DNA of 64,000 nt, from assembly GCF_030690345.1 (NCBI RefSeq), contig NZ_JAUYGV010000008.1, positions 188,433-252,432 on the forward strand, in the 5' to 3' direction. Of the stretch, positions 42,829 through 53,039 are shown in pieces; position 1 is the first letter of the stretch; each line of letters opens with the position of its first letter. A model generated the notes under the pieces. The model was not told where the DNA came from and ran no database searches. It was given only the letters and a program-made list of their open reading frames with translations. Position numbers and translations under genes: made by a program. The DNA is from Rheinheimera sp. GTDB lineage: Bacteria > Pseudomonadota > Gammaproteobacteria > Enterobacterales > Alteromonadaceae.

Positions 42829-45426
42829 TTACACCGCTTGCTGGATAATCACGTTATCCGCTTTTTTGGTGTACTGCTCCATGCGGTGGAAGTTCAGGTA
42901 ACGATAAGTATCGGCCGCAGTAGCATCGATTTGCTTCGCGTATTCCATATACTCGGCTACTGTTGGCAGTTTACCGATAATAGAAGCAACTGCTGCCAGC
43001 TCGGCTGAAGCTAAGTACACGTTTGCGCCCTGACCTAAACGGTTCGGGAAGTTACGCGTAGAGGTAGATACTACTGTTGAGTTCTCCGCTACCCGTGCCT
43101 GGTTACCCATACACAGTGAACAACCCGGCATTTCAGTGCGGGCACCTACTTTACCGAAAATGCTGTAGTAACCTTCTTCGGTCAACTGCGCCTGGTCCAT
43201 CTTGGTTGGCGGTGCAATCCACAGACGGGTTGGCAGCTGGCCTTTGTATTTATCCAGCAGCTTACCGGCGGCGCGGAAGTGGCCGATGTTGGTCATACAA
43301 GAACCGATAAACACTTCGTCGATTTTGTCGCCGGCTACGTCAGACAGTAAACGCGCATCGTCCGGATCGTTTGGTGCACACAGCACCGGCTCTTTAATGT
43401 CAGCAAGGTCAATCTCGATAATTTCGCTGTACTCAGCATCGGCATCGGCAGACATCAGCTGTGGATCTTTCAGCCAGGCCTGCATTGCGTTAATACGACG
43501 CTCGATAGTGCGCACATCGCCGTAGCCTTCAGCAATCATCCACTTCAGCATAACAATGTTTGATTCTAAGTATTCAGCAATAGAGGCATCTGACAGCTTG
43601 ATACTGCAACCGGCAGCAGAGCGCTCTGCAGACGCATCAGATAACTCAAACGCTTGTTCTACTGTTAAATTTGGTAAACCTTCGATTTCCAGAATACGGC
43701 CGGAGAAGATGTTCTTCTTGCCTTTCTTATCAACGGTTAACAAGCCTTTTTGGATGGCTACGTACGGAATAGCATGTACTAAGTCGCGCAGGGTAATACC
43801 CGGCTGCATTTCGCCTTTAAAGCGTACCAGTACTGATTCCGGCATATCCAGTGGCATTACACCGGTTGCAGCTGCGAACGCTACCAGGCCAGAACCGGCC
43901 GGGAACGAAATACCAATCGGGAAACGGGTGTGCGAGTCACCACCGGTACCTACGGTATCAGGCAGTAACATACGGTTTAACCAGCTGTGGATAATACCAT
44001 CGCCCGGACGCAGTGATACACCGCCGCGATTCATAATAAAGTCCGGCAGCGTGTGGTGCGTATCAACATCAACCGGCTTCGGATAAGCGGCAGTGTGACA
44101 GAACGACTGCATGGTTAAATCGGCCGAAAAACCCAAACAGGCTAAGTCTTTTAACTCGTCGCGCGTCATCGGGCCGGTGGTATCTTGCGAGCCCACTGTG
44201 GTCATTTTTGGCTCACAGTATGTGCCGGGGCGTACGCCTTTCACGCCGCAAGCTTTACCGACCATTTTCTGCGCCAGCGTAAAGCCTTTACCTGAGTCCA
44301 CTTTAGCTTGTGGCCGGCGGAATTTGTCCGACGGGCCATGGCCTAAGAATTCACGCGCACGGTCAGTTAAGCCACGGCCGATAATCAGCGGAATACGGCC
44401 ACCGGCACGTACTTCGTCAATTAACACGTCGGTTGCCAGGCTAAATTCAGCCAGCACTTCACCACTACCGTGACGAACCACTTTGCCTTCGAACGGCAGA
44501 ATGTCGATCACATCACCCATTTCCAGCTTGGAAACATCAACTTCAATTGGCAGCGCACCTGAGTCTTCCATAGTGTTAAAGAAGATAGGTGCAATTTTGC
44601 CACCCAGCACAAAACCACCGCCGCGCTTGTTCGGCACGTATGGAATGTCGTCACCCATAAACCACAGCACAGAGTTAGTGGCGGATTTACGTGACGAACC
44701 GGTACCCACTACATCGCCAACATAAGCCAGCGGGAAGCCTTTTTTGTTCAGCTCGTCTAACTGTTTGATTGGGCCAACAGTGCCCGGCTGATCCGGGTTA
44801 ATGCCTTCACGGGCATTTTTCAGCATGGCTAAGGCATGCAGTGGAATATCCGGCCGTGACCAGGCATCCGGTGCCGGTGATAAATCATCAGTGTTGGTTT
44901 CACCCGACACTTTAAATACGGTAACAGTAATTTTTTCCGCTAAGGCTGGTTTGGCTTCAAACCACTCGGCATCGGCCCAGCTTTGTACTACTTGCTTGGC
45001 ATGCACATTACCGGCATCGGCTTTTTCGGTGACATCATGGAAAGCATCGAAAATCAGCAAGGTGTGCGACAGCGCTTTGGCAGCAATAGGCGCCAGCTTG
45101 TCGTTGTCCAGCAGGCTGATTAACGGCTGAATATTGTAGCCGCCCATCATGGTGCCTAATAACTCAGTAGCGTATTCGGCACTGATCAGGCTGCTTGACG
45201 CTTCGCCATTAGCCAGAGCGGCTAAAAAGCCGGCTTTAACATAAGCCGCTTCGTCTACGCCCGGTGGTACGCGGTTTACTAATAAATCAACTAAGGTGTC
45301 TTCTTCACCTTTTGGCGGGTTCTTTAACAGTTCAACTAAGGCGGCTACCTGCTCAGCATTGAGCGGTTTTGGCGGGATACCTTGCGCAGCGCGCTCGGCC
45401 ACATGTTCGCGATATTGTTGTAGCAC
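42829..45426 (-). CDS. acnB: aconitate hydratase B (also 2-methylisocitrate dehydratase activity)
   Basis: 865 residues, the standard AcnB length. The order is AcnB-specific: N-terminal HEAT-like domain (1-160), swivel domain (about 170-380), then the catalytic domains. Iron-sulfur ligands are the cysteines of [12 protein letters not shown] and of PGCSLCMGN near the C terminus. It isomerises citrate and isocitrate in the TCA cycle and binds mRNA as an apo-protein. It stands alone with its own promoter region and terminator, flanked by two palindromic repeats. Link to the DUF3612/malate-synthase-like pair 5 kb away is only thematic. Confidence 0.98.
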
Positions 45427-45626
45427 AGTATGATCCTCTTGGTCGTTGCCGGCAGTCTTGCTACTGCGGCGTCATTCTTAGAATGAATGGGCGTAATTAT
45501 ATGAAAATTCGGGCCAGATTGACATCGGGCCGTTAACCACCCTACTTATAGTGGGTATAAATACGGTGAATATGAAACCGGATGTTATATACTCTTCGTT
45601 ATAGTGGTCTGACCTCGCTAGCTATG

Positions 45627-45743
45627 ACAGAGGTTGGAATCCCGAGCCGGGCGCCACAGAGTGTCTGAGCCCTGCCGCAGGCAGTAGGGCGAGTTGCTGT
45701 GGCGAGCCGGAGCGGGAATTGCAACCGGCGGGCTAAACTCTGT
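45627..45743. repeat. large palindromic intergenic repeat, copy B (between pepO and acnB)
   Basis: GGTTGGAATCCCG (45632 onward) pairs with CGGGAATTGCAACC (to 45726), with outer ACAGAG/CTCTGT. An inner hairpin CTGCC-GCA-GGCAG lies at the tip. It shares with copy A the motifs CACAG(G/A)GTGTCTGAGC and GCGAGTT(A/G)CTGTGGCGAGCC. The rest of the 395-base acnB upstream gap (45427-45822) holds the acnB promoter region and the pepO terminator; I see nothing else. Confidence 0.75.
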
Positions 45744-45760
45744 TAACTATTATAGATATA

Positions 45761-45790
45761 AAAAAGGCTGAGTAGTCACCTACTCAGCCT
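45761..45790 (-). terminator. terminator of the PepO gene
   Basis: AGGCTGAGTAG, TCAC loop, CTACTCAGCCT (45765-45790), followed on the leftward strand by TTTTTATATC. Perfect 11-base stem. Confidence 0.9.
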
Positions 45791-45822
45791 GTGCAGTGTA
45801 GCAGATTTTTGTTATCCAGCGA

Positions 45823-47892
45823 TTACCAGATCTTAACGCGCTGCTCTGGTGCAATATACATCGCATCGCCTTCTTTAATATCAAAAGCCGTGTAAAACTC
45901 CGGAATATTTGGCAGTACACCGATAACACGATAATGCGCCGGTGAGTGTGGCCCCGTGCTTAACTGGCGCTTTAACGCCTCTTCGCGGTACTGTGAACGC
46001 CATACCTGCGCCCAGCTTAAAAAGAAACGTTGCTGACCGCTAAAACCATCCAGTACCGGCGCTTCTTTGCCTTCCAACGACAGTTGATAGGCTTTCAGAG
46101 CTACCGTCATACCGCCTAAGTCACCGATGTTTTCACCCAGCGCCAGCGCACCGTTAATGCTCAGGCCAGGCAAAGGTTCAAACTTATTGTACTGGCCAAT
46201 TAACTTGGCGCCACGCGCCTGGAACTGCATTTTGTCCTGCTCGGTCCACCAGTTGCGCAGGTTACCATTACCGTCGTACTTAGCGCCCTGATCATCAAAA
46301 CCATGGCCGATTTCGTGGCCAATAACACCACCGATACCGCCGTAGTTTACCGCATCATCTGCTGCCATATTAAAGAATGGTGGTTGCAGAATAGCCGCCG
46401 GAAACACAATCTCGTTATTTACCGGGTTGTAGTAAGCATTCACCGTTTGTGGCGTCATAAACCACTCGCTCTTGTCGATTGGCTGACCCAGCTTATTGAT
46501 CATGTCGTCGTAGCCCCAATGGCTGGCGCGGACAAAGTTACCGACTAAATCGTCGGCTTTAATTTCCAGGGCAGAGTAATCTTTCCATTTATCCGGGTAA
46601 CCGATTTTCGGTGTGAAGGTGCTGAGTTTTTCCAGCGCCGCAACCTTGGTTTCCTCTGTCATCCACTCCAGCTCTTTAATCGAGATTTCGTAGGCTTTAA
46701 TCAGGTTAGCTACCAGCTGTTCCATCCGCGCTTTGGCTTCCGGTTTAAAGTGGCGCTCAACGTACAGCTTACCGGTCAACTCACCTAATACCTGGTCTGA
46801 GGCATCAACCGCCCGTTTCCAACGCGGTTGCTGCTGTTCAATGCCGCTCAAGGTGGTGCCGTAAAAAGCAAAACGCCGCTCGGCAAAGTTGCTGCTGAGT
46901 TTATCGGCATAGCTGTTAATGGTTTTGATGCTTAAATAATCCTGCCAGCTTTGTAAGTCTGTGCTGTCCAGCACCTTAGCAAAACCGTCGAAGTAGCTTG
47001 GTTGACGCACAATAATGTCAGTTACGCCGGCAAGTTTGGCACCGTTAGCAAAGGCAGCCCAATCAAAGCTACCCATTTGGCTATCGAGCTCTGTAGCGGC
47101 AATTTTGTTATAGGTTTTATCGGCGTTGCGGCTCTCTACCCGCGTCCAGTGATGTTCGGCCAGCGCTTTTTCCAGTGCATAAACGCGCTCAGCCGCTGCA
47201 GCAGCATCGGTGTGACCGGCCAGGCTAAACATATCGGCTAAATAGGCTTTGTAATCGGCAATCAGCTTTAATGAGGCTTCATCATCTTTAAAGTAATAAT
47301 CGCGATCCGGTAAACCTAAACCACCCTGGTTCAGATACACGGCGTACTCAGAAGAGTTCTTCGCATCGTTATTAACATACCAGCCAAACGGAATGGCTAC
47401 GCCATCGCGCTGCAAGCTGGCAAATAACGACGCCAGTTGCGCTTTGTCAGTAACGGCTTTAATGGCATCCAGTTGTGGTGCCAGCGGACTGATGCCCAGT
47501 TTTTCAATAGTGGCTTCATCCATAAAGCTGTTGAAAAAGCTGCCCAGCTTTTGCTCATCAGAGCCGGTTTTTAAATCGGTACGGGCCGACACTTCATCAA
47601 TAATGGCCTTAACTGCCTGCTGTGAATTGTCGTTCAGAATGTGGAACGAGCCGTAAGAGGCTTTATCGGCCGGGATCGGCGTTTCAGCTAACCACTTGCC
47701 GTTTACTGCGAGGAAGAAGTCTTCACTGAATTTTACCGCCGGGTCAAAGTATTGCTGGTCGATGCCCGATACTAACGGGGCTTTCACTTCAGCAACTGCC
47801 GCAGTTTGGGTTTGAGTGGCATCCTGTTTGTTACACGCCGTAAGGCCAAGTGCCAGCGCCACTGAGGCGGCGGCTAAGGTAAGTTTTTTCAT
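45823..47892 (-). CDS. pepO: M13-family zinc metallopeptidase, PepO-like lipoprotein
   Basis: 689 residues. The lipobox LGLTAC places it in the periplasm on a membrane anchor. The zinc motif HEIGH is at residues 526-530, followed by GFDDQGAKYD; the third ligand motif ENIGDLGG is near residue 588, and the substrate motif NAYYNP near 487. Neprilysin-type peptidases cut peptides of up to about 30-40 residues. It is leftward with its own terminator and divergent from the DUF2157 gene. Confidence 0.95.
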   Translation of the reverse strand: MKKLTLAAASVALALGLTACNKQDATQTQTAAVAEVKAPLVSGIDQQYFDPAVKFSEDFFLAVNGKWLAETPIPADKASYGSFHILNDNSQQAVKAIIDEVSARTDLKTGSDEQKLGSFFNSFMDEATIEKLGISPLAPQLDAIKAVTDKAQLASLFASLQRDGVAIPFGWYVNNDAKNSSEYAVYLNQGGLGLPDRDYYFKDDEASLKLIADYKAYLADMFSLAGHTDAAAAAERVYALEKALAEHHWTRVESRNADKTYNKIAATELDSQMGSFDWAAFANGAKLAGVTDIIVRQPSYFDGFAKVLDSTDLQSWQDYLSIKTINSYADKLSSNFAERRFAFYGTTLSGIEQQQPRWKRAVDASDQVLGELTGKLYVERHFKPEAKARMEQLVANLIKAYEISIKELEWMTEETKVAALEKLSTFTPKIGYPDKWKDYSALEIKADDLVGNFVRASHWGYDDMINKLGQPIDKSEWFMTPQTVNAYYNPVNNEIVFPAAILQPPFFNMAADDAVNYGGIGGVIGHEIGHGFDDQGAKYDGNGNLRNWWTEQDKMQFQARGAKLIGQYNKFEPLPGLSINGALALGENIGDLGGMTVALKAYQLSLEGKEAPVLDGFSGQQRFFLSWAQVWRSQYREEALKRQLSTGPHSPAHYRVIGVLPNIPEFYTAFDIKEGDAMYIAPEQRVKIW

Positions 47893-48041: not shown

Positions 48042-49016
48042 ATGGATCAACTGCGCCGCGCCGATCAACTGTTGCAGTGGACAGAGCAACAGCAACTCAA
48101 CACTAACCAGCTGCAACAGGCCGCCGGCCGTTATGCGCTGCAGCCGGCAACCGAACTCTGGCTGCTACTGGCCAACCGCGTGTTACTGTTTAGCAGTGTA
48201 GTCCTGTTAAGCAGTGCGCTGATTTTCTTTCTCGCCCATAACTGGCCGTTAATGCATTATTTTGCCAAATTTGCGCTGGCAGGCGCTGCTGTGCTGACAG
48301 CCGGTGCCGTAGCCTTTTTCAGCAAGGCGCACAGCCTGCTACAACGTGCAGCCTTGCTGGCAACGGCGATAACGACGGGCGCCTTATTGGCACTGATCGG
48401 CCAAACTTACCAAACCGGTGCCGATATCTGGCAGCTATTTGCCGGCTGGGCGGCATTGATAACGCCGCTGGTGCTGCTGTCCGGCAGTCGTGCCTGCTAT
48501 CTACTGTGGTTTTTGCTGCTGGAGCTGGCGCTGAGCCGTTATCTGCATACTCAGTCTGATTTTTTCTGGCTGCCGGCAAGCCCACCTATGATACTGAATC
48601 TGGCATTGGCGAACCTGTTGCTATTGGTATTTGCCGAATTTGCCCTGCCCCGGCTTCGGGTTAAAGCCAACCAGGCGCTGGTTTGGCTGGCAGCGCTGCT
48701 GTTAATAGCGCCGTTAACTTACGGCGCAGCTATCGGCACATGGGACAGCGACTACCGGCCCAACTTGCTGGCTTATCTGCTGCTGACAGCCGCGCTGATG
48801 CTGTGGTATTGGCGCCGGCGCCGCGATGTGCTGTTGTTAGCCTTACTGACATTCAGTGCCATTAGCGTGGCAACCTCAATGCTGGCAAGCGTGCTGGAAA
48901 ATGCTGATGAGTTTGTTGCGATGAATTTGTTGGCACTGTTTGTTATCGGCAGCAGCACCGGCGCGGTGATCTGGCTGAAAAAGCTGCTGCAAGCCCCTGT
49001 AGAGACCACCGTATGA
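48042..49016 (+). CDS. DUF2157-type membrane protein
   Basis: 324 residues. A short cytoplasmic N terminus (about 1-45, with LLQWTEQQQLNTNQLQQAAGRY) leads into about eight to nine membrane spans. The segment GQTYQTGADIWQLFAGWA near residue 125 is typical of DUF2157 proteins. The function is unknown. It overlaps the next gene by ATGA and forms a three-gene unit with the DUF4401 and GDYXXLXY proteins, an arrangement seen in other bacteria. Confidence 0.85.
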   Translation: MDQLRRADQLLQWTEQQQLNTNQLQQAAGRYALQPATELWLLLANRVLLFSSVVLLSSALIFFLAHNWPLMHYFAKFALAGAAVLTAGAVAFFSKAHSLLQRAALLATAITTGALLALIGQTYQTGADIWQLFAGWAALITPLVLLSGSRACYLLWFLLLELALSRYLHTQSDFFWLPASPPMILNLALANLLLLVFAEFALPRLRVKANQALVWLAALLLIAPLTYGAAIGTWDSDYRPNLLAYLLLTAALMLWYWRRRRDVLLLALLTFSAISVATSMLASVLENADEFVAMNLLALFVIGSSTGAVIWLKKLLQAPVETTV

Positions 49017-50077
49017 AGCCAAACGCCGAACTCACCACACAGCTCACCGCTGAACTCGCCACACAATTGCAGCAAGCCGGTATTGTTGACCAGGCCGCCG
49101 CAGCGCAGTTGCTTAATCCGGCAAGCCCCTGGTGGCTGCAAATTATGCAGGGCATCGCCGCCTGGATAGCATCGATATTTATTATCAGCGCCTTTGTCGG
49201 CCCGCTACTGGCGCTGACAGGCAGCAACGTAGTGTACTTAGTTACCGGCTTGCTGTTATTAGCCGGCGCTATCTGGTTGGCGTTGCGGCCGCAAGAGTTT
49301 TTGCAGCATATGTCGGTCGCTGTAGCATTAGCAGGCCAGGGCTTGCTGGTGTACAGCAGCTATGAACTGTTTGCGCATTCTATCGACGTACCGCGCTATG
49401 CCTGCGCCCTTATCAGCGCGCTACTGCTGTTAAGCCCGCTTAACCGGCTGCACCAGCGGGCCAGCTTAAGCATTGCCTTGCTGTGTCTGTTGTCGTTAAT
49501 TGACTCTGCGCCGGCAATAGCCGTTATCAGCTCAGTGCTGGCGGCGCTGGCGGTTGTGTTGTGGTGCAGCCGGCCGCAGTGGAGCGGCCTGGCCTTTGCC
49601 GGCCGGATAAAAAGCCTGCTGGAAGTTGCCACCCTGGCCGGGTTTGGCCTGAGTTTATTTGGCCAGTGCCTGCTGTTTATTGACAGCAGCCACTGGCTGG
49701 ACAACAAGCTGATGCTGGCCCGCGCTTTATGCAGTGCACTTGGCAGTGTACTGTTAATTGCTACCGTATTTTGGCTCAGCCGGCTGGCAACAGTGCCCAG
49801 CCGGCTGGCACTACTGACCGTAACCACGCTGCTGTGTATTTTACTGTACCCGGCGTCGGGTTTATTGGTTAGCTGCGCCTTAATGCTGGCGTGTTTTTAC
49901 GGCTGCAGCCGGCGCTGGTGCGCGCTGGCTTTACTGAGCATGCTGTTTGCCATCAGCCAGTTCTATTACAGCCTTGAGCTTAATTTGCTGCACAAATCCG
50001 GCCTGCTGGCATTATCGGGCCTGCTGGTACTGGCAGCCTGGTTATTACTGCAACGTTACCAGCGGAGGTTAGCATGA
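49013..50077 (+). CDS. DUF4401-type membrane protein
   Basis: 354 residues. After a 45-residue N terminus, about ten membrane spans run to the end. It resembles DUF4401 proteins, which occur between DUF2157 and GDYXXLXY genes. ATGA overlaps at both ends couple translation of all three. No active-site motif is visible, and its role is unknown. Confidence 0.82.
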   Translation: MKPNAELTTQLTAELATQLQQAGIVDQAAAAQLLNPASPWWLQIMQGIAAWIASIFIISAFVGPLLALTGSNVVYLVTGLLLLAGAIWLALRPQEFLQHMSVAVALAGQGLLVYSSYELFAHSIDVPRYACALISALLLLSPLNRLHQRASLSIALLCLLSLIDSAPAIAVISSVLAALAVVLWCSRPQWSGLAFAGRIKSLLEVATLAGFGLSLFGQCLLFIDSSHWLDNKLMLARALCSALGSVLLIATVFWLSRLATVPSRLALLTVTTLLCILLYPASGLLVSCALMLACFYGCSRRWCALALLSMLFAISQFYYSLELNLLHKSGLLALSGLLVLAAWLLLQRYQRRLA

Positions 50078-50568
50078 TATTAACGCGGCACAGGCTGGCC
50101 ATTGCCGCCGCCGTATTACTTGTTCTGGCCACGGCAGGCGCAGCAATTGCGCAGTTTGAGCACACGCTGAAAACCGGCCGCGTGGTTAATATCGCGCTGG
50201 CACCGCTGGACCCCCGCTCGATTATGCAGGGAGATTATATGGCGCTGGCCTATGCCATTGACCGCGAATTACCGGAAGATGCCGCGCAGTATAAATACGC
50301 CTGGCTAAGTGTAGATGCCCGGCAACTGGCCAGCTTGCACAGCCTGAGTAACAGTTTGCCGCAACAGCCGCAGTTGGTTGCCGTATTGCTGCGCCGGCGC
50401 GACGGTATATTCAGTGTTGGCCCCAATGCGTTCTTTTTTGCTGAGGGCACAGGCGCGCTATATGAACAGGCACCGTATGGTCAGTTCCGGGTAGATGCCG
50501 GCGGCAAAGCATTGCTGGTAAGTTTACTGGATGAAAATTTGCAGTTATTAGGGGAGAATAGCCGCTGA
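50074..50568 (+). CDS. GDYXXLXY-domain exported protein
   Basis: 164 residues. An N-terminal hydrophobic stretch (8-30) acts as signal or anchor; the domain name motif is read directly as GDYMALAY near residue 52-59, just after LDPRSIMQ. The rest is beta-rich and periplasmic. It probably works with the two membrane proteins before it; the function is not established. Confidence 0.88.
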   Translation: MILTRHRLAIAAAVLLVLATAGAAIAQFEHTLKTGRVVNIALAPLDPRSIMQGDYMALAYAIDRELPEDAAQYKYAWLSVDARQLASLHSLSNSLPQQPQLVAVLLRRRDGIFSVGPNAFFFAEGTGALYEQAPYGQFRVDAGGKALLVSLLDENLQLLGENSR

Positions 50569-50698: not shown

Positions 50699-52201
50699 TT
50701 AATCTTGACACTGATAACAGCCGGGGCTACGCGGGCAACTGTTACCGCGGGCGCAAATCAGTTGCACCGGCTTTTGTAAGCTGCGTGCCACCCAGTTAAT
50801 ATTCAGAATATTCGCCACACTGGTCAGCGCGGTTTGAATAGTTTTCGGCACCCTGGCACCACCGCTGCTGCCAACACACAACTGCTTTAATTCACCGGCC
50901 ATGCTATCGGCATCGACACCCTGCGCCAGCAACGCCGGGTTTAAATCGATACCGGCGCACAATACATGGGTATTGCCGGCCAAATCGCTTACTTTGGTAG
51001 ACTCGCAGCAGTAAATACGCGGCGCGCCGTTTACATCCAGCAACGACAGCTGCGCACTGCTGGCTACGCCTTCTACGTCAAACATCCGAAACACCGCCCA
51101 ATGCTGACACGGATCTTCAACCTGACGCATATTACCCCAAGGCAGCGGTATTCCGTTGCCGCGATACACCGCTTTAAGTTTACCCGGTGTATAGGCATCA
51201 AAATAATGCCAGTGCGTGTAGGGCGATACTGCCGTCATGCGGCGCATTGCCACCGATGCCGACACCCCGGCTTGCTGATGCGTGCTGATCTCATAACCAT
51301 GGCGGTCCAGCAACTGGCGAAACGGTAATTTGGGGCATAAAAGCGCGCCGGCAAAAAAGCTCGATTCAAAATCACGCCAGGCGTGCAAAATATCCTGCGG
51401 CTGCACGGCGGTAGAGCTGGACAGCTCATCATCATGCGCACCGCCCACTGTCATGCTGCTTTTTACACCGTCTTTATTGTGCAGCACGGCATGGCCGATA
51501 TGCACCGCCAGCTCGTATTTTAACCGTGTAGGAAACTGCTGCAGCAAGCTGTTTAAATGCAGGGTATTGGGCGGACTGAAAAACGACGTGGAGACGTTTT
51601 TTGACAATACCCCCAATTCATCCAGCAGCTCTTTCGGGGCTTCGGTAAACCAGCTGATCTGCAGCCCAAGCTGTTTTACGATCGCCAGCAACTCTTCCAC
51701 ACTCAGCGGCATACGTTTTTGGCCAACGTCTTCGGCCGCACGTTCCAGCTCAGGGAAGTGGTTTTGATGGTGCTCCTGATGCGCGCGAATAAGCAACTGG
51801 GCAAACTGCTTGCCACTGGTACCGGTTTGCGACAGCATTTCCGGAATGGCAATTTGCAAAATATCATTGGAAAACAAAAAACCCGGCTCCAGCGCCATAC
51901 CGCTGATACCGCCACGGCTGCCTTTTTGTGGCGTTAAATCCTGGCCGTCGTCTTCACCATCGAGAAACCAGTCGATGTCTTTTTGAAATACTTCAGCAAT
52001 AACCTGCAGCATTTCCACACCGGGCACCCGTTTACCGCGTTCAATCATGGACAGATAAGACACCGACGGCGCCTGCTCCGGATCGACGCGGATACAGCGG
52101 GTGGATAAATCTTCCATGGTTAAGTTATTGCGCTTTCTCAGGTTTCTGATCTTGGTTCCGAGAAAATGCGACTTTCTGAGCAGGCTTTTATTTGCTTTCA
52201 T
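50699..52201 (-). CDS. XRE-family regulator with DUF3612 / ImmA-like region
   Basis: 500 residues. The N-terminal HTH (about 14-75: GTKIRNLRKRNNLTMEDLS, PSVSYLSMIERGKRVPGVEML) resembles the ScfR/RamB class of regulators. The middle holds an IrrE/ImmA-like stretch (YELAVHIGHAVLH, although the usual HExxH is not obvious), then a DUF3612-like C-terminal half. The protein ends with a Cys cluster (GNSCPRSPGCYQCQD) that could bind metal. In Vibrio and Shewanella such genes neighbour glyoxylate-shunt genes, from memory. Here the divergent gene encodes a malate synthase G-like domain, which fits. Confidence 0.8.
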   Translation of the reverse strand: MKANKSLLRKSHFLGTKIRNLRKRNNLTMEDLSTRCIRVDPEQAPSVSYLSMIERGKRVPGVEMLQVIAEVFQKDIDWFLDGEDDGQDLTPQKGSRGGISGMALEPGFLFSNDILQIAIPEMLSQTGTSGKQFAQLLIRAHQEHHQNHFPELERAAEDVGQKRMPLSVEELLAIVKQLGLQISWFTEAPKELLDELGVLSKNVSTSFFSPPNTLHLNSLLQQFPTRLKYELAVHIGHAVLHNKDGVKSSMTVGGAHDDELSSSTAVQPQDILHAWRDFESSFFAGALLCPKLPFRQLLDRHGYEISTHQQAGVSASVAMRRMTAVSPYTHWHYFDAYTPGKLKAVYRGNGIPLPWGNMRQVEDPCQHWAVFRMFDVEGVASSAQLSLLDVNGAPRIYCCESTKVSDLAGNTHVLCAGIDLNPALLAQGVDADSMAGELKQLCVGSSGGARVPKTIQTALTSVANILNINWVARSLQKPVQLICARGNSCPRSPGCYQCQD

Positions 52202-52268
52202 TTTGTAAAATTCACACTGTAAAATTTTTATTGTGAAATTATGCTGATTTTTAGCCTAGACTAGTTTT

Positions 52269-52477
52269 TAACCGATAGCAACTGGTCTGACATTCAACGT
52301 CAGATTGGCAGATGCTCAGATGCTGACAGCAAAGGTGCCGATCCTTTTCGCATTGGCGAAGGCGGACAACACATTCGTCCGGAACGAATGTGGCCTGCGC
52401 AGCAGGTCCGCCAGGTTGAGGGCCGGATAGCCCGAAACTCCGCGGCACCGGGCATGGCAGCATCTGAGCATCGGTTA
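52269..52477. ncRNA. highly structured intergenic element, candidate regulatory RNA (or MITE)
   Basis: Nested perfect pairs: outer TAACCGAT/ATCGGTTA (52269-52276 with 52470-52477, sharing three bases with the next stem), GATGCTCAGATGCTG (52311-52325) with CAGCATCTGAGCATC (52458-52472), GGTGCCG (52334-52340) with CGGCACC (52443-52449), and GGCGGAC (52361-52367) with GTCCGCC (52406-52412). Local hairpins include TCTGAC/GTCAGA (52286-52304), TTCGC/GCGAA (52347-52360), CACATTCGT/ACGAATGTG (52370-52392) and GGGC/GCCC (52420-52433). This is a multibranch fold. It fills the gap between the divergent DUF3612 and malate-synthase-like genes, reading as a 5' leader of the latter. No known class was recognised. 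Confidence 0.6.
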
Positions 52478-52523
52478 TTAAAGCTAAACACTGCACCTGA
52501 TTACAAGAGACGAGGATGACATC

Positions 52524-53039
52524 ATGACTACATTGGCCCAACAACACAGCACTCCATCACAGAGCCATACCGCCTGGATGGCGACCGAGCTTAGCGTGAT
52601 TAACGAGCTGAACCAGCGCCATGTCAAACAGGTAATGGATTACTCAAAAGGCTTTTTAGATAAAACCTTTCCGCTGCAGCAAGGCTCGCATAAAGACGTA
52701 TGCAGCTATGTGGTGTACTACCAGCAGCTGCTGGCGTTTTTTGCCGACGGCAGCACCAGCGGTTTGCAAACCCCGCCGCAGTTTGTTGCCTTAAGCGGCC
52801 ATCGCGAAGCCCCCTGCTCTATTGTGCTGAACAATAATGGCCGCCACGTCGAGCTGATTTTAAACCGCAGCGGCATTAACGGTTGTCAGGATAAAGCCAG
52901 TATTGACGATATTCAGCTGCAAACCTCAGAGCCGGATTGCGTTTGGTTTAGCATGGTAACCGGCCGCCAGGTAAGTTGCGCCCACAAAGGCAATAAGCAG
53001 TTTACCTGCAAAGACGGCTTGCCATATTCACTGGCATAG
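52524..53039 (+). CDS. stand-alone protein resembling the insertion domain of malate synthase G
   Basis: 171 residues. Residues about 34-135 match, by memory of GlcB sequences, the malate synthase G segment from the FLD..PL..GS..D helix-strand (here FLDKTFPLQQGSHKDV, 44-59), through D.ST.GL..P.QF (GSTSGLQTPPQFVALSG), to L.N.GLH.EI (here NNNGRHVEL, 103-111). The catalytic barrel residues that follow in the enzyme are absent, and the last 35 residues are Cys-containing and unrelated. It is too well kept (clean frame, own ribosome site) to look like decay. It probably has a non-enzymatic role, such as sensing glyoxylate-shunt metabolites; that is inference. Confidence 0.65.
   Translation: MTTLAQQHSTPSQSHTAWMATELSVINELNQRHVKQVMDYSKGFLDKTFPLQQGSHKDVCSYVVYYQQLLAFFADGSTSGLQTPPQFVALSGHREAPCSIVLNNNGRHVELILNRSGINGCQDKASIDDIQLQTSEPDCVWFSMVTGRQVSCAHKGNKQFTCKDGLPYSLA

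Follow-up and report, generated by a model that had tools for sequence, protein, structure and literature searches.

The gene at positions 52524 to 53039 of the 64,000-nucleotide stretch of Rheinheimera DNA analyzed here (the window) encodes a 171-amino-acid protein that sequence and predicted structure confirm to be a free-standing domain III of malate synthase G (GlcB), without its enzyme. It is divergent to the gene for a DUF3612 regulator, and we give roughly even weight for and against its being a co-regulator or sensor for DUF3612, left behind by a malate synthase. The argument draws on the following features of the window:

50699 to 52201, minus strand: divergent regulator of 500 amino acids with an HTH, an M78-like region and DUF3612, its predicted fold like that of M. 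tuberculosis PrpR (Pfam, AF2, Foldseek)
52204 to 52240, plus strand: predicted operator, three direct repeats TGTRWAATT with a 14-bp period (52204 to 52212, 52218 to 52226, 52232 to 52240), two bases from the DUF3612 start codon (sequence, motif search)
52234 to 52262, plus strand: predicted promoter of the domain III gene, with TGAAAT (within repeat 3), a 17-nt spacer and TAGACT (spacing comparison)
52311 to 52472, no strand assigned: inverted-repeat element between the operator/promoter and the domain III gene, in some genus members only (comparison of loci)
52512 to 52515, plus strand: ribosome site GAGG (sequence; 27 of 27 genus loci)
52524 to 53039, plus strand: stand-alone malate synthase G domain III gene of the PRK08951 family, 171 amino acids (open reading frame, Pfam, NCBIfam, PDB matches, AF2/Foldseek)
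52605 to 52925, plus strand: first half of domain III, residues 28 to 134, equivalent to E. coli GlcB about 157 to 263 (alignment)
52941 to 53036, plus strand: second half of domain III, residues 140 to 171, equivalent to E. coli GlcB about 289 to 329, the intervening barrel strand missing (alignment)

The original prediction described an intact frame with a ribosome site, similar to malate synthase G and lacking its catalytic barrel, and each of these points was borne out. The frame runs unbroken from an ATG, and GAGG occupies the matching position ahead of the start codon at every genus locus compared. Similarity to malate synthase G lies far above chance: the sole family found by Pfam was PF20658 (MSG_insertion; E = 2.8e-20, score 72.7 bits, gathering cut-off 24.8, model positions 2 to 76 of 76), a sequence search of the PDB matched E. 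coli malate synthase G (MSG) over residues 28 to 134 (E. coli 157 to 263; E = 2.5e-16), and the NCBIfam model NF006511/PRK08951, “malate synthase,” scored 178 bits (cut-off, 173) over positions 5 to 184 of 190. The family is already in NCBIfam, as PRK08951, under that enzyme name; the same product name appears on two plasmid records (L033 and L035) despite the lack of any catalytic part. Scores against the malate synthase G equivalogs fell below their cut-offs (NF002825, 77.3 bits versus 565; TIGR01345, 72 versus 989.15). In the alignment to E. coli GlcB, the catalytic barrel and all of the catalytic residues (E272, R338, E427, D455, and D631 in E. coli numbering) fall outside the 171 amino acids.

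GlcB-like residues had been placed at about 34 to 135. The homology stands, but the end near residue 135 does not, because residues about 140 to 170 match the second half of domain III. In an alignment that included E. coli GlcB and five full-length relatives, the strand DCEDSVAAVDAEDK and the residues around it (about E. coli 265 to 287) have no counterpart in the protein; similarity picks up again with W.S...G...K.FT.KDG..Y.L on E. coli GlcB about 289 to 329. Both halves of domain III are present; neither the barrel strand that separates them nor the remainder of the enzyme is. Domain III of E. coli MSG is itself built from two such segments, apart in the sequence. PMC5207166 gives a single segment, 135 to 265, as domain III of the M. 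tuberculosis enzyme. Of four residues taken as markers for the second half, each is present in 57 to 59 of 60 nonredundant linked stand-alone proteins; the markers are not kept in linked L123 and L137 (in the latter the second half is poorly conserved) or in unlinked L122 and L159, and L249 has no second half.

Structure prediction, proposed earlier as a check, gave a confident domain III fold (AF2 model from 53 sequences; pLDDT 89.2, pTM 0.79). All 50 PDB matches listed by Foldseek are malate synthases, with a match to malate synthase G domain III at E = 1.5e-10 and a core superposing at 0.8 Å rmsd over 98 columns on several M. tuberculosis entries. Superpositions spanning both halves gave 7 to 18 Å, versus 0.8 Å for the core, and it is for the 98-column core that the model has the domain III fold.

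Among 295 genomes of the order, 72 carry DUF3612, one copy each, and all 72 copies are divergent to a domain III gene. The partner is a stand-alone gene in 44 genomes, a full-length glcB in 25, and another form (an open frame of 346 to 453 amino acids) in 3: in G270 a full-length gene with a broken frame and a further piece in another frame, and in G032 and G314 a 334/342-amino-acid form in which domain III is kept and four of five catalytic columns are gone. A contig scan, for which the query was an alignment of stand-alone proteins that contained no DUF3612, agreed: the best 80 of 202 confirmed loci were kept, and all 80 have a divergent DUF3612 gene next door, with 60 stand-alone proteins and 20 full-length GlcB (722 to 742 amino acids). 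Shewanella sp. ANA-3 (L050) is among the carriers of the pair, and a linked full-length glcB occurs in Marinomonas. Single-domain proteins of this kind do recur beside DUF3612, a point that the original prediction had left to a survey. Within the genus, DUF3612 was found in 30 of 31 genomes and the stand-alone gene, intact, in 29 of 30 relatives. In G020 the regulator, the stand-alone gene, and the perfect operator are missing together; in G004 the domain III gene and DUF3612 lie about 6.8 kb apart, each with its own triple operator.

A survey of the class detected DUF3612 in 6 of 369 genomes, including that of the window: it faces aceB-aceA in G342, and in G491 it faces aceA, followed by a glcB with an ordinary domain III. 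In G581 (L249, 6797 to 11250) it is divergent to a gene for a 137-amino-acid stand-alone domain III, of which only the first half is present, and the genes for isocitrate lyase and monomeric isocitrate dehydrogenase follow in that order. In G568 and G676 a contig end truncates the locus.

Second stand-alone copies were also observed. G032 and G314 carry, besides the degenerate malate synthase (L121, 7478 to 8482, minus strand; L158, 3982 to 5010, plus strand), a further stand-alone copy of 150/158 amino acids with an operator of its own. In the order survey, nine Vibrionaceae genomes likewise have a second copy away from DUF3612 with its own operator (for instance, L118, 6471 to 9574, and L171, 7276 to 12156). 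The second copy of G055 immediately follows an ordinary full-length glcB, and that of G319 is about 2 kb away from one.

In the wider neighborhood of the window, aconitase B and an M13 peptidase (42829 to 47892) stand some 3 kb beyond the regulator, and similar M13 and aconitase genes directly follow the regulator in G004. Three adjacent genes (DUF2157, DUF4401, and GDYXXLXY; 48042 to 50568) separate the M13 peptidase from DUF3612.

A decaying glcB fragment, or an annotation artifact, is an obvious alternative, and the original prediction had named decay of a full-length glcB seen in relatives as the finding that would overturn it. Full-length glcB does hold the same position in other lineages, and both the shrunken form of G032 and G314 and the broken frame of G270 lend the idea some support. 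The decay itself did not hold up. Among 28 genus sequences, the stand-alone gene evolves under purifying selection (median dN/dS 0.059, maximum 0.31; 233 of 378 pairs usable, the other 145 having been dropped because dS was outside 0.05 to 2 or saturated), with the second half looser than the first (0.125 versus 0.042). A median of 0.06 speaks against decay, as do the intact gene across the genus, the confident predicted fold, the retention of ribosome site, promoter, and operator, and a distribution that takes in Shewanella, Vibrio, Pseudoalteromonas, Psychrosphaera, and the Rheinheimera group. Given purifying selection together with widespread occurrence, we regard the gene as derived rather than decaying and set decay or artifact aside as extremely improbable. 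The protein was also considered as the missing piece of a split malate synthase. The sole malate synthase C-terminal match of its own genome is AceB (797 bits), which offers no place for domain III, and this reading was therefore rejected.

The divergent neighbor had been called an XRE/DUF3612 regulator, and Pfam does find an HTH, a weak M78-like match, and DUF3612 (PF12268, E = 1.4e-90). Fifty-eight DUF3612 proteins share 61 to 94% identity with it, and DUF3612 proteins have invariant cysteines near the C terminus (C483, C489, and C495). Its AF2 model is of moderate confidence (pLDDT 73.9). The six best PDB matches of this model are all entries titled “M. tuberculosis transcriptional regulator” (6cz6, 6cyy, 6cyj, and 6d2s; E = 3e-8 to 1e-7; TMq 0.35 to 0.42), and PprI/IrrE follow. 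The predicted fold is thus an HTH with a CoA-binding core of the PrpR/RamB type; against the NCBIfam RamB equivalog the protein reached 17.1 bits (cut-off, 700), on the HTH. According to PMC6765138, 6CYJ is PrpR, whose binding of CoA and short acyl-CoA is controlled by a [4Fe4S] cluster, and RamB, a PrpR homologue, has been proposed to repress icl1. Five regulators of Shewanella aceBA are named in PMC3223726, and the term XRE is absent from that article. No mention of DUF3612 or PRK08951 was found in the main texts of the open-access literature.

The triple-repeat motif stands at the start of every intergenic stretch examined, usually 1 to 3 bases from the DUF3612 start codon. It was found with at most two mismatches in 157 of 158 stretches and perfect in 124 (some places are counted twice); for the exception, L066 (7 mismatches), the chosen start of the stretch excludes the first repeat. 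A 17-nt spacing between TGAAAT and TAGACT (or a near variant) was best in 141 of 147 stretches, with TAGACT itself in 96, and reads as a predicted promoter of the partner gene, overlapped by the third operator repeat. The window locus has the full arrangement of divergent DUF3612 gene and triple-repeat operator. Between these signals and the domain III gene lies the inverted-repeat element of 162 bp, with 30-nt ends that are 80% complementary; it looks like a small mobile element, and similar copies occupy the same place in L005, L008, L009, L013, and L016 and are absent from the other genus loci examined.

At up to one mismatch, the site was found among 60 relatives in genomes with the pair; G020 has only two one-mismatch sites. 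In 45 genomes, at the same stringency, an operator lies no more than 1.1 kb upstream of 53 of 54 domain III genes, and the 11 unlinked stand-alone copies found in the order survey (G055, G032, and nine others) are all preceded by one of their own. Eighteen further sites in these 45 genomes lie away from domain III genes (four at aceB, in G179, G226, and twice in G252; three near aceA, in G078, G131, and G098; 11 unexplained), a number to be read against 12 matches to a reversed control pattern in the same genomes. In the genome of the window, a clear predicted operator was found at this locus only; a third site has a mismatch, and at that setting the control pattern gives 4 matches.

The original prediction tied the regulator to glyoxylate metabolism, and the content of the putative regulon agrees. 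In 21 of the 25 genomes with linked full-length glcB, aceA comes after it, so the divergent unit there constitutes the glyoxylate shunt; of the remaining four genomes, three have a one-mismatch site about 520 to 550 nt upstream of a distant aceA. When the stretches upstream of aceB in 43 genomes, 37 of them stand-alone genomes, were scanned with a matrix, 11 proved to hold a strong double repeat (scoring above 24), all 11 in stand-alone genomes, and among 681 control stretches of 1.5 kb none exceeded 24 (highest, 14.0). The same scan found no operator at aceB in the genome of the window (score, −12.4), G015, or G020. Direct control of aceBA in the window's own genome was considered and set aside, the operator having been sought there both genome-wide and at aceB. 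As a separate observation, perfect double repeats in G161 and G055 (L202, 3242, and L203, 3371) lie just downstream of a LysR-type gene; a gene of that kind stands upstream of aceB in G252, and these sites are possibly remnants of a moved or lost aceB.

Catalysis appears to have been taken over elsewhere. All 44 stand-alone genomes own another malate synthase, which is AceB above the cut-off in 41 and an unlinked full-length GlcB in G161, G277, and G319. Among the 25 genomes with a full-length linked gene, AceB was found in 5 and a second GlcB in one (G038), and the linked enzyme is the sole malate synthase recognized in 19. Catalytic residues are intact in all 37 linked full-length rows.

This regulon content also feeds the main rival explanation, in which domain III would inhibit, activate, or scaffold isocitrate lyase or AceB post-translationally, and DUF3612 would only set the amount of domain III alongside the shunt genes. 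The operator before aceB and near aceA, the position of aceA after linked glcB, and the gene order of G581 all suit such a role, which would moreover give the circuit an output where further operators are unseen. Against it, the type of isocitrate lyase varies (strong TIGR01346 matches in four genomes, a weak long form elsewhere), whereas DUF3612 is constant, and the malate synthase of most stand-alone genomes is AceB, a type without its own domain III. We consider this reading possible and clearly less probable than a role with the regulator.

Phylogenies point to an origin of the stand-alone gene within linked glcB. In a quick tree, 24 unlinked GlcB rows split from the linked rows (support 98, starred), and all 66 stand-alone rows formed one group (97, starred) within the linked set. 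A careful tree of 89 rows recovered the linked/unlinked split (100/99, starred) and rejected the linked full-length rows as a clade of their own (p-AU = 0.0009). Five long rows (L122, L123, L137, L159, and L165) and 21 other stand-alone rows were left out of this tree; its 40 stand-alone rows fell on one side of a branch (65/96, not starred). Because the linked rows separate from the unlinked and the stand-alone rows nest among them, the stand-alone gene would derive from linked glcB, most simply once, although a few origins are possible at that branch support. Several independent excisions are not needed, given the placement of those 40 rows. The shrunken form of G032 and G314 is a separate loss of catalysis.

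The constraint on domain III appears to be older than the excision. In four bins matched for barrel identity (0.66 to 0.82; pairs not independent), domain III identity was 0.55 to 0.56 among linked full-length enzymes versus 0.44 to 0.47 among unlinked ones; domain IV, as a control, showed no gain (0.66 to 0.68 versus 0.65 to 0.75). Six residues (F49, Y65, F73, G80, A89, and Y168) are common to stand-alone and linked full-length proteins and rare in unlinked GlcB. The alignments indicate that a special role of domain III predates excision, as its extra conservation is already present in linked full-length enzymes.

Sequence comparison thus shows a DUF3612-linked domain III clade, a full-length glcB at the same position elsewhere, a replacement malate synthase, and retention of the predicted operator and promoter. 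Domain III and DUF3612 are likely to be functionally tied, because linked enzymes carry extra constraint on domain III, the two genes are lost jointly in G020, and operators precede every unlinked copy. We propose that DUF3612 regulates the glyoxylate shunt in response to acyl-CoA, in the manner of PrpR/RamB, and that it would bind the triple repeat, repress itself, and control the partner gene. Its targets would be glcB-aceA in the ancestral arrangement, DUF3612 itself, the stand-alone domain III gene, and, in some genomes, aceB. Domain III may bind the DUF3612 protein directly, or a ligand for it, and tune its activity, which is the least certain step; a feedback role of the ancestral malate synthase would then have been kept by selection once catalysis passed to AceB or another GlcB. 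The specific form of this proposal, in which domain III of the linked enzyme served a PrpR-like acyl-CoA regulator as a module for docking and feedback and a trigger enzyme of the glyoxylate shunt was stripped to that module after the takeover by AceB or another GlcB, we hold somewhat more tentatively, at a little short of even chances.

Several observations weigh against the co-regulator or sensor role. The main one is that no second clear operator was found in the genome of the window, and none besides the pair's own was seen in the genus, so that the pair is without visible output there. Two more distant DUF3612 regulators (G342 and G491) manage without a special domain III; some stand-alone forms (L123, L122, L159, and L249) lack the second half, and L137 conserves it poorly; the branch uniting the stand-alone rows is unstarred (65/96); and the regulator model is of moderate confidence. 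A further alternative is that domain III works, perhaps as a small ligand-binding protein, in a role unrelated to the regulator or the shunt enzymes and was kept through the place of glcB in the regulon. Regulon content alone does not fix a molecular role, and no domain III ligand or partner was found in the open-access literature; yet the co-loss with the regulator in G020 and the operator kept at every unlinked copy are tighter than a random regulon member needs. We judge this alternative unlikely, slightly more so than an action on the shunt enzymes.

The docking and feedback proposal, if true, would mean that an accessory domain of an enzyme survives alone as a dedicated co-regulator under the original promoter and operator. 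We know of no role for domain III of malate synthase G, and a search of the open-access literature for one found none. The locus amounts to a natural domain-deletion experiment, in which many marine and freshwater gammaproteobacteria have kept domain III alone, along with its regulator, promoter, and operator, and offers a direct route to asking what the domain does. For the DUF3612 family it points to a probable function and DNA site, and for the glyoxylate shunt to a probable further regulator. It shows as well that a group of proteins carrying the annotation malate synthase cannot be such enzymes, and the wrong enzyme name misleads metabolic models. New here are the DUF3612/domain III pairing (72 of 72), the replacement malate synthase (44 of 44), the triple operator, the PrpR-like DUF3612 model, and the extra conservation of domain III before excision.

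Compared with known systems, the protein matches malate synthase G (PDB 1d8c, 1p7t, and 5oas) in domain III, by sequence as by Foldseek, and differs in having no N-terminal clasp, barrel, C-terminal domain, catalytic residues, or barrel strand between the two halves. It belongs to the same family as NF006511/PRK08951, the name of which implies an enzyme and which carries nothing on regulator, operator, or origin. DUF3612 resembles PrpR/RamB in predicted fold and in a connection to control of the glyoxylate shunt or isocitrate lyase (for RamB and icl1, PMC6765138), and its three invariant cysteines are a possible further likeness; it differs in having the DUF3612 C-terminal domain instead and in matching the RamB model at 17 bits, through the HTH only. 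As in trigger enzymes and enzyme-derived regulators, a part of an enzyme has a proposed regulatory role; unlike them, a noncatalytic accessory domain is kept here alone, and the intact parent enzyme occupies the same gene position in sister lineages.
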